Below are positions 50,885 through 57,094 of a stretch of 64,000 bases of DNA, piece by piece (position 1 is the first letter of the stretch; each line of letters opens with the position of its first letter). This stretch comes from Lutimaribacter saemankumensis (GTDB lineage: Bacteria > Pseudomonadota > Alphaproteobacteria > Rhodobacterales > Rhodobacteraceae). The notes beneath the pieces were generated by a model. That model was not told the origin of the DNA, did not search any database, and saw only the letters and a list, made by a program, of their open reading frames with translations. The stretch is taken from NCBI RefSeq assembly GCF_900100005.1, contig NZ_FNEB01000001.1, positions 496,001-560,000 on the forward strand. The letters are read 5' to 3'. Made by a program: the position numbers and the translations under genes.

Positions 50885-50996
50885 CTTAACCCCACCATGC
50901 CAGAGTGAATTGCGCCCGTTGCCACATGTCCACTTTCGGCGCGGGCCGACTTCCTCCCTGTCAGACTGGCCGCATCCTTCGGGATGCGGCTTTTTT
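50885..50996 (+). ncRNA. Candidate short transcript ending in a UUCG terminator
   Basis: A plus-strand interval of about 110 bases ends in a classic terminator, but no plus-strand gene lies upstream: the neighbour is the 5' end of the HerA-like gene on the minus strand. A TACAAT box sits at 50879-50884, without a good -35. It contains CTTCCTCCCTG, an unpaired pyrimidine stretch. Start and reality are uncertain. Confidence 0.3.
50969..50996 (+). terminator. Strong terminator with UUCG tetraloop
   Basis: Stem GCCGCATCC/GGATGCGGC closed by TTCG and followed by TTTTTT. It has no annotated gene upstream in its direction. Confidence 0.85.
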
Positions 50997-51096
50997 CAGC
51001 ATCTGCGACATGTGCCGGCGGTTGTCGGCCGGCCGCTGCGCAAATTGTGATCTATTGGCTGTTGACCGGACGGGGGAAACATCCTAGCGTCCGATC

Positions 51097-53788: not shown

Positions 53789-55405
53789 CTAGGCCCCGGT
53801 TTCGCGCAACAGCTTCCAGACGATCGCGTCCAGCAGGGCGTCAAAGGATGCATCGACGATGTTGGGGCTGACGCCAACCGTCGACCAGCGCCGACCGGCG
53901 CTGTCTTCGCTGTCGATGATCACGCGCGTCACGGCGTCGGTGCCGCCTTGGGTGATACGCACCTTGAAATCGACAAGCCGCATATCCGCGATCAGGTCGG
54001 AATAGCGCCCCAGATCCTTGGCAAGCGCGCGCGCCAGTGCGTTAACCGGGCCGCGGTCGCTGCCCGCCTCGTCCAGCGATTCACTGACCGACAGTTTCTT
54101 TTCGCCGTCGACCTTCACCACCACGACCGCTTCGGACAGGCTGACCATGCGGTTGTACTTGTTCTTGCGCCGCTCGACCGTGACCTTGTAGCGCTTGACC
54201 TCGAAATACTCGGGCAACTGCCCCAGCTCGCCCCGCGCCAGCAACTCGAATGACGCCTGCGCGCTGTCATAGGTGTATCCCTGCGCTTCGCGGTCCTTGA
54301 CGATATCGAGGATGCGGGCCAGCGCGGGGCTGTCCTTTGGCACCTCGATCCCGGCCTCGGACAGGCGGCGGCGCAGGTTCGACTGGCCCGCCTGGTTCGA
54401 CATCGGCACGATGCGCGCGTTGCCCACAAGGGCGGGGTCGATATGTTCGTAGGTGCTGGGATCTTTCAGGATCGCACTGGCATGCAGCCCGGCCTTGTGC
54501 GCAAAGGCGCTGGCGCCGACATAGGGCGCCTGGCGCAGCGGCACGCGGTTCAGGATGTCGTCAAGCTGCCGGCTGATCCGTGTCAGGCCCTGCAGAGCCT
54601 CGGGCGTGATGCCGGTGTCATAGCGGCTGGCATAGGGTTCCTTGAGCAGCAGCGTCGGGATCAGCGTGGTCAGGTTGGCATTGCCGCAGCGTTCGCCCAG
54701 ACCATTCAGCGTGCCCTGGATCTGCCGCGCACCCGCATCGACCGCCGCCAGCGAACAGGCAACCGCGTTTTCGGTGTCGTTGTGGCAATGGATGCCCAGC
54801 CGGTCGCCGGGGATGCCGGCGGCGATCACATCGGCGGTGATGCGGCCCACCTCGTCGGGCAGCGTGCCGCCGTTGGTGTCGCACAGCACGATCCAGCGCG
54901 CACCGGACGTCAGCGCGGAATTGAGGCAATCCAGCGCATAGTCCGGGTTGGCCTTCCAGCCGTCAAAGAAATGCTCGGCGTCGAACAGCGCCTCGCGCCC
55001 CTGGCCCACCACATGCGCGACGCTGGCGCGGATGCTTTCGAGGTTTTCCTCCAGCGTGATGCCAAGCGCAGTGGTGACGTGAAAATCATGCGTCTTGCCG
55101 ACAAGGCAGACGGCGGGCGTGCCCGCGTTCAGCACGGCGGCCAGCACATCGTCGTTTTCCGCCGACCGGCCCGCGCGCTTGGTCATGCCGAAGGCGGTGA
55201 ACCGCGCGCGCGTGTCGGGCCGGGCATCGAAAAACGCGCTGTCGGTGGGGTTCGCACCGGGCCAGCCGCCTTCGATGTAATCGACCCCCAAGGCATCCAG
55301 CGAGGCCGCGATCTTGATCTTTTCGGCGGTCGAGAACTGCACACCCTGCGTCTGCTGCCCGTCGCGCAGCGTGGTGTCGTAGATGTAGAGGCGATCGCGG
55401 GTCAT
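53789..55405 (-). CDS. cimA: (R)-citramalate synthase
   Basis: Condenses pyruvate and acetyl-CoA to citramalate, the entry to the threonine-independent isoleucine route. At 538 residues it is the CimA/LeuA-like architecture: a TIM barrel with YDTTLRDGQQTQGVQFS at the start, ALGVDYIEGGWPGANPTD, the metal-binding GIHCHNDTENAVACSLAAVDAGARQIQGTLNGLGERCGNANL, then linker and C-terminal LeuA-dimer allosteric domain (about 400-530). GGAGG precedes the ATG. CimA of this type often replaces threonine deaminase flux. Confidence 0.92.
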   Translation of the reverse strand: MTRDRLYIYDTTLRDGQQTQGVQFSTAEKIKIAASLDALGVDYIEGGWPGANPTDSAFFDARPDTRARFTAFGMTKRAGRSAENDDVLAAVLNAGTPAVCLVGKTHDFHVTTALGITLEENLESIRASVAHVVGQGREALFDAEHFFDGWKANPDYALDCLNSALTSGARWIVLCDTNGGTLPDEVGRITADVIAAGIPGDRLGIHCHNDTENAVACSLAAVDAGARQIQGTLNGLGERCGNANLTTLIPTLLLKEPYASRYDTGITPEALQGLTRISRQLDDILNRVPLRQAPYVGASAFAHKAGLHASAILKDPSTYEHIDPALVGNARIVPMSNQAGQSNLRRRLSEAGIEVPKDSPALARILDIVKDREAQGYTYDSAQASFELLARGELGQLPEYFEVKRYKVTVERRKNKYNRMVSLSEAVVVVKVDGEKKLSVSESLDEAGSDRGPVNALARALAKDLGRYSDLIADMRLVDFKVRITQGGTDAVTRVIIDSEDSAGRRWSTVGVSPNIVDASFDALLDAIVWKLLRETGA

Positions 55406-55475: not shown

Positions 55476-56873
55476 TCACAGCAGCCCCTCCAGCTTGGCC
55501 GGGTCGAAATCCGGGCCGGGCACCAGATCGACCCCATCCTTGGACATGCGCACCTCAACACCCGCGGCCAGAAGCGCGGATTTCATCGCGTCGACCTGGC
55601 CGAAATCCTTGGTCGCCATCGCGTCGGCCCGCGCCGACGCCAACCTTTCGGCGAGCGCCGCGAGGTCCGCCGCGGGAACCGAGGCCCAATCCGGCACATC
55701 ACCGCCCATGAACCCGAGAAACTGCAGACTGTGACGAAGGGTTGTCGCGTCATCGGCCAGTGAAAGCTGGTGCAATTCCGCGATGGCCTGCGCGGTGTTC
55801 AGATCATCCGAAAGCGCCGCGACGACGCCTTGATAGGGTGCGCCGTTACCGATCGCGGTGGCGGCCTGTGCATACCACTTCCGCAGCGTCCGTTCCGCCT
55901 CTTCCCGCTTCTTCTCGGTCCAGTCCATCGGTTTGCGGTAATGCGTGGACAGCATGACGAAGCGGATCACCTCGCCCGGCACGCCCTGGTCCAGCAGGTC
56001 GCGCACGGTAAAGAAGTTGCCCAGGCTCTTGGACATCTTCTTGCCCTCGACCTGCAGCATCTCGTTATGCAACCAGAACCGCGCGAACCCGCCCTCGGGA
56101 TGGGCGCAGCAGCTTTGCGCGATCTCGTTCTCGTGGTGCGGGAACTGCAGGTCGATCCCGCCGCCGTGGATGTCGAACGTCTCGCCCAGCAGCTCATAGG
56201 CCATGGCCGAGCATTCGATATGCCAGCCCGGACGCCCCCGGCCCCAGGGGCTGTCCCAGCCCGGCAGGTCGTCCGAAGACGGTTTCCACAGCACGAAATC
56301 CATCGGGTTGCGCTTGTAGGGCGCGACCTCGACCCGCGCGCCGGCGATCATGTCATCGACCGACCGGCCCGACAGCTTGCCGTAGTCGCGGTAGCTGTCG
56401 ACCGAGAACAGCACATGGCCCTCGGCGGCATAGGCGTGGCCCTTTGCGATCAGATCTTCGATCATGGCGATCATCGCGCCGATCCATTGCGTCGCGCGCG
56501 GCTCGCGGTCGGGCCGCAGGGTGCGGAGCTCGCACATGTCAGCGTGATACCAGGCAATGGTTTCCTCGGTCCGTTCGGCGATCAGCTCTTCCAGCGTTCC
56601 CTTGGCGCCAGCCTCTTTCCGGGCCAGCGCGGTGGCGTTGATCTTGTCGTCCACGTCGGTGAAATTGCGCACGTAGGTGACGTGATCCGGCCCATATACA
56701 TGGCGCAACAGGCGGTAGAGCACGTCGAACACGATCACCGGGCGTGCATTGCCCAGATGCGCGCGGTCATAGACCGTTGGCCCGCAGACATACATGCGCA
56801 CATTGTCGGGGTCGATCGGCTGGAACCGCTCTTTCTGGCGGGTTTTCGTGTTGTAGAGCCGGATTTCGGTCAT
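55476..56873 (-). CDS. cysS: Cysteinyl-tRNA synthetase
   Basis: Charges tRNA-Cys, 465 residues. The HIGH-type motif is AHLGNAR (38-44), and KMSKS is at 279-283. Zinc ligands fit C30 (YVCGPTVYD), C221 (WHIECSAMA), H246 and E250 ([11 protein letters not shown]). The start at 56873 has GAGG 6 bases upstream; a frame-open extension adds only four codons. A Cys-rich leader ORF ends 83 bases upstream. cimA follows downstream, 70 bases away, and may share the transcript. Confidence 0.96.
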
Positions 56874-56886
56874 GTCTGTCCTCACA

Positions 56887-56949
56887 CGCGGGCGTCCGCG
56901 GCGGGCTTAGCAACTTCGATGCGCAAGGGAAAGAAGGAACGGCCCGCCG
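56887..56949 (-). promoter_or_regulatory. Competing hairpins in the cysS leader
   Basis: In the minus-strand RNA, an 8-bp stem pairs CGGCGGGC (56949-56942), just after the leader stop, with GCCCGCCG (56906-56899). A local stem CGCGG-ACGC-CCGCG (56900-56887) uses part of the same arm and ends next to the cysS ribosome site (GAGG, 56883-56880). A ribosome paused on the leader would mask the first arm. There is no U-tract. Confidence 0.4.
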
Positions 56950-56956
56950 AGATATC

Positions 56957-57010
56957 TCAGCAGGTAATGCAGATGCAGATGATGCAGGTGCCGTTCATGG
57001 GACGTGACAT
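56957..57010 (-). CDS. Cysteine-rich leader peptide upstream of cysS
   Basis: A 17-codon ORF encoding MSRPMNGTCIICICITC, with four Cys codons (all TGC) among the last nine residues, directly before a TGA stop. A CAGGGG ribosome site lies about 5 bases before the ATG. It precedes cysS on the same strand by 83 bases. The layout is that of attenuation leader peptides, where ribosome stalling at codons of the relevant amino acid alters downstream RNA folding. The link to cysteine is inferred from composition and the downstream gene. Confidence 0.68.
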   Translation of the reverse strand: MSRPMNGTCIICICITC

Positions 57011-57094
57011 TACGCCCCTGCCCGGCCCTTGCCAAGCGGAATCGACGCGGCCATGGTCGGCACGGAATTTGATCAAACCGAAAGGGGCCGTGCC

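Follow-up and report, generated by a model that had tools for sequence, protein, structure and literature searches.

The window analyzed here (64,000 nt from Lutimaribacter saemankumensis) carries, on its reverse strand, the genes cysS and cimA, which are separated by 70 nt and between which no terminator was found. A short reading frame rich in Cys codons and a putative promoter precede cysS:

53789-55405, reverse strand: cimA, citramalate synthase of isoleucine biosynthesis (TIGR00977, 600.7 bits, cut-off 450)
55476-56873, reverse strand: cysS, cysteine--tRNA ligase (TIGR00435, 418.8 bits, cut-off 340)
56879-56883, reverse strand: Shine-Dalgarno (SD) sequence GAGGA of cysS, read from the sequence
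56957-56998, reverse strand: leader ORF of 13 codons, MNGTCIICICITC, followed by TGA; predicted to be leaderless, with transcription expected to start on the A of its AUG or no more than a few nt away
57007-57012, reverse strand: putative -10 element TAATGT, at the -10 position in relatives, holding the start codon of the initial annotation
57030-57035, reverse strand: putative -35 element TTGGCA of the leader promoter, supported by a TTG peak at -36 to -34 in 143 ATG-anchored relatives

The initial annotation, made from the window sequence, had described a 17-codon ORF with a ribosome-binding site of its own. The longer ORF (MSRPMNGTCIICICITC) is indeed present on the reverse strand, ends at 56957, has four TGC codons among its last nine and stops 83 bases before the cysS ATG (56873). 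However, the ATG with which it opens (57010) falls within the -10 box and is replaced by ACG in L082, a genome from the same genus, whereas the second ATG (56998) is the start kept across relatives, which reduces the leader to 13 codons with Cys at positions 5, 8, 10 and 13 and no tandem pair. When the 143 relatives were aligned on the leader ATG alone, TA-rich -10 bases appeared at -13 to -11 and C occupied -1 in 85%. In 127 of the 143, 6-8 nt separated the end of the -10 element from the leader ATG, as is usual when transcription begins with the A of the AUG; in the window, the spacer between -35 and -10 is 17 nt. SD-like 4-mers preceded the leader ATG in just 16 of 143 relatives and were thus rarer than in shuffled sequences (23.4), which does not bear out a ribosome site for the leader; the SD of cysS was present in 95 of 110 relatives. 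From the promoter spacing and the lack of a leader SD we infer a leaderless mRNA beginning at or near the leader AUG. A comparable arrangement is found in the alphaproteobacterial trpLE(G) attenuator (rnTrpL/peTrpL) of Sinorhizobium meliloti, where the RNA begins at the ATG of a 14-amino-acid leader (PMC7298713), although that system senses Trp and differs in its operon and its pairing arms.

The initial annotation had suggested comparing the region upstream of cysS across many Rhodobacterales, and here the ORF, its Cys codons and the pairing arms proved to be conserved. Upstream regions (n = 192) were scored for Cys and Ile among the last nine codons of an ORF; a score of at least 5 was reached in 165 of them, compared with 1.4% of Markov sequences, and with one genome per genus the leader was found before cysS in 101 of 110 Rhodobacteraceae genera. 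It has 13 or 14 codons in 90% of cases and lies at a median distance of 87 nt from cysS. The best-conserved feature of its Ile/Cys run is a core Cys codon, which encodes Cys in 134 of 143 non-redundant leaders (TGC 115, TGT 19). Between one and five Cys codons occur per leader, and 102 of the 143 have a tandem pair, mostly near codons 9-10.

Ile codons are enriched to a similar degree. The base composition of codons 4 to n-2 predicts 80.8 Ile and 46.3 Cys codons there; 509 (6.3-fold) and 339 (7.3-fold) were observed, while Leu (0.15-fold), Val (0.18-fold), Phe (0.13-fold), Tyr (0.03-fold) and Lys were depleted. On this composition we rejected the view of the Ile codons as mere AU-rich filler. 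Between nearest pairs of leaders the most frequent replacement was a Cys-Ile exchange, despite the two or more base changes that it needs, although some of these exchanges may be register shifts. A codon-position test based on third-base bias was uninformative because this exchange alters the first two bases. An NCC NGC pattern in the last two codons is explained by a hairpin described below (P2). The leader ORF is thus rich in codons for the amino acids that the downstream genes serve, as in attenuators of the trp and his type, and its translation is predicted. The third-from-end Ile codon (56966-56968 in the window) is ATT in 147 of 163 leaders, and the other Ile codons mix ATT and ATC.

Leader presence also followed the linkage of cysS with cimA. 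In all 86 genera with both genes on one contig, cimA lay downstream of cysS on the same strand, and 80 of the 86 had the leader; of the six scored as lacking it, two carried degenerate Cys leaders. Where cimA was absent or far away, the leader was missing from seven of eight well-assembled genomes and altered in the eighth, with cysS retained; genomes with contig breaks soon after cysS (e.g., G185, G161, G071 and G150) were left out of this comparison. The difference (80/86 linked vs. 0-1/8 unlinked) corresponds to p of about 1e-6 if kinship is ignored, and well-supported branches of the cysS tree force at least three changes of the unlinked label, so that the unlinked genomes are not one clade. 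The eighth genome (L265, G108) has no cimA. Some 90 nt before its cysS, an atypical ORF rich in Cys (MDWICCLCRA) includes a single Ile codon and may be a leader that retains Cys sensing but has lost Ile sensing. One further genome (G105) has an Ile-containing leader, with no cimA found in its fragmented assembly.

Two stems and a U-rich tract lie within and directly downstream of the leader ORF:

56990-56996, reverse strand: P1 5' arm GAACGGC (leader nt 3-9, from the last base of the AUG through codon 3), from the swapped-arm test and covariation
56943-56964, reverse strand: P2 hairpin CCUGCUGAG-AUAU-CUCGGCGGG, spanning the stop codon and the two codons before it, from pairing and covariation
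56937-56943, reverse strand: P1 3' arm GCCGTTC, just after the stop-codon hairpin, from the swapped-arm test and covariation
56925-56936, reverse strand: U-rich tract CUUCUUUCCCUU after P1, a candidate intrinsic termination site, from the U content in relatives

A perfect complement of leader nt 3-8 was present in 44 of 91 genera, compared with 21.4 +/- 3.2 when arms were swapped between species. Double-sided changes in P1 occurred in 66 cells, compared with 33.6 +/- 4.6 in shuffles (63 loci, of which almost none had been used to train the covariance model, in an alignment fitted to the structure). P1 is imperfect in many species, with only about 61-64% of its cells paired; in P2, 91% of cells are paired and the loop-closing pair covaries. 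P1 encloses the Cys codons, and P2 holds the last Cys codon only. The minimum-energy fold of the window sequence contains both stems (z -2.77). Owing to register shifts of the P1 3' arm, RNAalifold returned no structure on a MAFFT alignment, and swapped-arm tests and the covariance model were used in its place; a helix search across the entire upstream segment had a high background. The initial annotation had seen no U-tract and had consequently placed control at translation or Rho. A U-rich tract does follow P1 across relatives (40-54% U over its first seven bases, G-poor), although it is interrupted by C, with about 5 U in 12, is weak in the window (CUUCUUUCCCUU) and was not recognized as a classical terminator by pattern scan. 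Since a covarying stem adjoins this tract, an intrinsic terminator formed by the two is plausible, and translational or Rho control need not be invoked.

Two further pairings involve the stretch between the U-rich tract and cysS:

56942-56948, reverse strand: P3 5' arm GGCGGGC, shared with the P2 3' arm, from covariation
56900-56906, reverse strand: P3 3' arm GCCCGCC (arm D), ahead of the cysS ribosome site, from covariation and masked folding
56883-56903, reverse strand: P4 hairpin adjoining the cysS SD, from the minimum-energy fold of the window sequence only

P3 is the pairing that the initial annotation had drawn between CGGCGGGC, which begins 7 bases past the leader stop, and GCCCGCCG near the cysS ribosome site. 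The complementarity is there, as is the second hairpin that had been noted beside this site (P4). The helix is real in that it covaries: the pair flanking its core (base 5' of GCGGG and base 3' of CCCGC) is G-C in 44 cases, C-G in 41 and a clash (G-G or C-C) in 17. It is, however, an alternative partner of the stronger hairpin over the stop codon, with which it competes, and its 3' arm, which transcription reaches only beyond the U-rich tract, cannot act before termination. A block just before the cysS ribosome site (AAGTTGCTAAGCCCGC, 56900-56916) is kept in several genomes from which the leader has been lost (L004, L043, L061, L264 and L265) and may have a second role, e.g., as a promoter or processing site.

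Model folds were used to follow these arms under a translating ribosome. In transcripts ending at the U-rich tract with no ribosome, P1 and P2 formed with probabilities of 0.80 and 0.73. Masking a ribosome footprint at codon 8 removed P1 and left P2, while masking at codon 10 removed both and allowed P3 to form (mean probability 0.61; window 0.85); P3 formed once leader nt from about 12 to 41 were masked. These folds imply that stalling anywhere in the Ile/Cys run would spoil the terminator. Predicted opening of the cysS SD differed little from one state to the next (0.37 to 0.42 on average; 0.29 to 0.44 in the window).

Taken together, these sequence comparisons lead us to favor, with some reservation, a ribosome-mediated transcription attenuator ahead of the cysS-cimA operon that reads the charging of both tRNA-Cys and tRNA-Ile. 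The leader, with 13-14 codons that are mostly Ile and Cys, would have the transcription start at its AUG or immediately beside it and would be translated without an SD of its own. Once the leader has been read through and the ribosome is gone, its first codons would pair with the arm past the stop-codon hairpin, and P1 stacked on P2 would form a terminator-like structure directly before the U-rich tract, where transcription would stop. With charged tRNA-Cys or tRNA-Ile in short supply, a ribosome waiting in the Ile/Cys run would cover an arm of P1 or P2, the terminator would not form, and cysS and cimA would be transcribed; the freed P2 arm could then pair with the downstream arm as P3. The idea of the initial annotation that a Cys-codon leader forms a ribosome-dependent switch on cysS is well supported by conservation in its cysteine part, but it had missed the Ile codons and the downstream cimA; likewise, its coordinates for the ORF and the stem stood, while the ribosome site, the 17 codons and the absence of a U-tract did not. 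Leaders that read several tRNAs are familiar from the enterobacterial thr (Thr/Ile) and ilv (Ile/Val/Leu) biosynthetic operons; those amino acids share a pathway, whereas the metabolism of Cys is separate from that of Ile and the targets here include a synthetase gene. If the dual reading is true, a tiny leader would use the supply of two unrelated charged tRNAs to tie isoleucine synthesis to that of cysteinyl-tRNA. It would also give a reason for the lasting linkage of cysS and cimA in a large group of marine and soil bacteria, and would offer a minimal model for the attenuation of leaderless mRNAs.

A device of this kind could instead read cysteine only, as Brewer et al. proposed (PMC8632094), with stalling at Cys codons controlling cysS and the Ile codons being a side effect, e.g., of a need for an unstructured loop. 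The published model, the position of cysS as first gene of the operon, the core Cys codon as the best-conserved feature of the run and the low G and C content of ATT and ATC all fit this explanation. We nevertheless consider it unlikely, though still a serious candidate: the 6.3-fold excess of Ile stands against the depletion of the equally AU-rich Phe, Tyr, Leu and Lys codons, and a Cys-only device would not predict loss of the leader where cimA is lost or unlinked and cysS remains. The linkage to cimA would also be left unexplained if the cysS ribosome site alone were controlled. Stalling might free the P2 3' arm for P3 and so open that site or alter Rho access, as P3 covaries and forms with a ribosome placed late in the leader in model folds, the U-rich tract is interrupted by C, and mycobacterial Cys leaders also lack terminators (PMC1262725). 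Against this, the P1 arm borders the U-rich tract across relatives, and the small change in predicted SD opening leads us to rank control by translation alone lower; the explanation as a whole appears rather improbable.

The tandem Cys pairs in 102 of 143 leaders could also be taken to mean that the nascent peptide is the sensor, of thiol, metal or redox state, in place of tRNA charging. Yet the number of Cys varies from 1 to 5, Leu and Val are rare although they would be hydrophobic substitutes for Ile, and the genes controlled are an aminoacyl-tRNA synthetase and an Ile-pathway gene, all of which makes a peptide sensor very unlikely. Short ORFs are common, but the occurrence of this one in 101 of 110 genera, compared with 1.4% in Markov controls, and its covarying stems leave practically no room for a chance ORF without function.

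A Cys leader before cysS is itself already known in Rhodobacterales, contrary to the novelty assumed in the initial annotation: the element is uORFC-8-2, a motif with 145 examples found only upstream of cysS in this order and proposed in silico as a candidate for ribosome-mediated attenuation by cysteine through an intrinsic terminator (Brewer et al., 2021, PMC8632094). Its description comprises an AUG, a tandem pair of Cys codons (usually at positions 14-15), two prominent stems, of which the first contains the Cys codons, and a U run (PMC8632094). The short Cys-codon uORF of the window likewise lies directly upstream of cysS in a member of the Rhodobacterales. It lacks a tandem Cys pair, which "usually" marks as a majority trait and not a strict one, and by its position, gene and conserved relatives we still assign it to uORFC-8-2. 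The published text has Cys only, whereas the leaders here also have Ile codons and cimA, and tandem Cys codons lie near codons 9-10 in our relatives. What is new is the likely dual Cys/Ile input to cysS-cimA, the predicted leaderless start and the anatomy of the P1, P2 and P3 arms, along with a relative in Hyphomicrobiales, and the proposed mechanism would, if true, give the published motif a testable function. The name uORFC-8-2 was not found in other papers of the literature searched, no Rfam family exists for the element, and the literature search turned up no expression, transcription-start, termination or ribosome data for it, no Rhodobacter transcript data naming cysS and no Cys/Ile leader. 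Leader ORFs with runs of Cys codons near their stop are also known from cys/cbs operons of mycobacteria and other actinobacteria (PMC1262725); unlike the present leader, they precede cysteine biosynthesis genes and have no conserved terminator hairpin, aminoacyl-tRNA synthetase or Ile.

In a sample of the class, a covariance model (R1) gave 4 matches in 289 genomes, all of them within the family of the window. This understates the range of the element, since R1 misses diverged leaders in Hyphomicrobiales: a pattern search recovered leaders in 21 genomes of one family of that order, and their promoter geometry and arms resemble those described above. All 21 contain two or more Ile codons, and 20 contain one or more Cys codons (just one in most, while one leader has none). 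In three of four Hyphomicrobiales regions cimA follows a short way after cysS, with at most one small gene in between, and in the fourth this is likely. The published exclusive range in Rhodobacterales therefore appears too narrow. Leader-like ORFs with Ile and Cys codons also precede cysS in single members of other alphaproteobacterial families (L207, L210, L216 and L229; e.g., MSNAHTIFICPIICR), which suggests a still wider range. In its fullest form, with one leaderless 13-codon leader integrating tRNA-Cys and tRNA-Ile charging over cysS-cimA in at least two alphaproteobacterial orders and with the start codon placed in the terminator stem, we lean only slightly toward accepting the proposal.

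Within the genome of the window, a covariance model search found no second copy of the leader (next matches at E 5.9 and 9.8). Elsewhere in the window, at 50927-50997 on the forward strand, overlapping sub-threshold matches to the sRNA families SorX and SorY were observed (26.4 and 27.7 bits; E 0.006 and 0.02).
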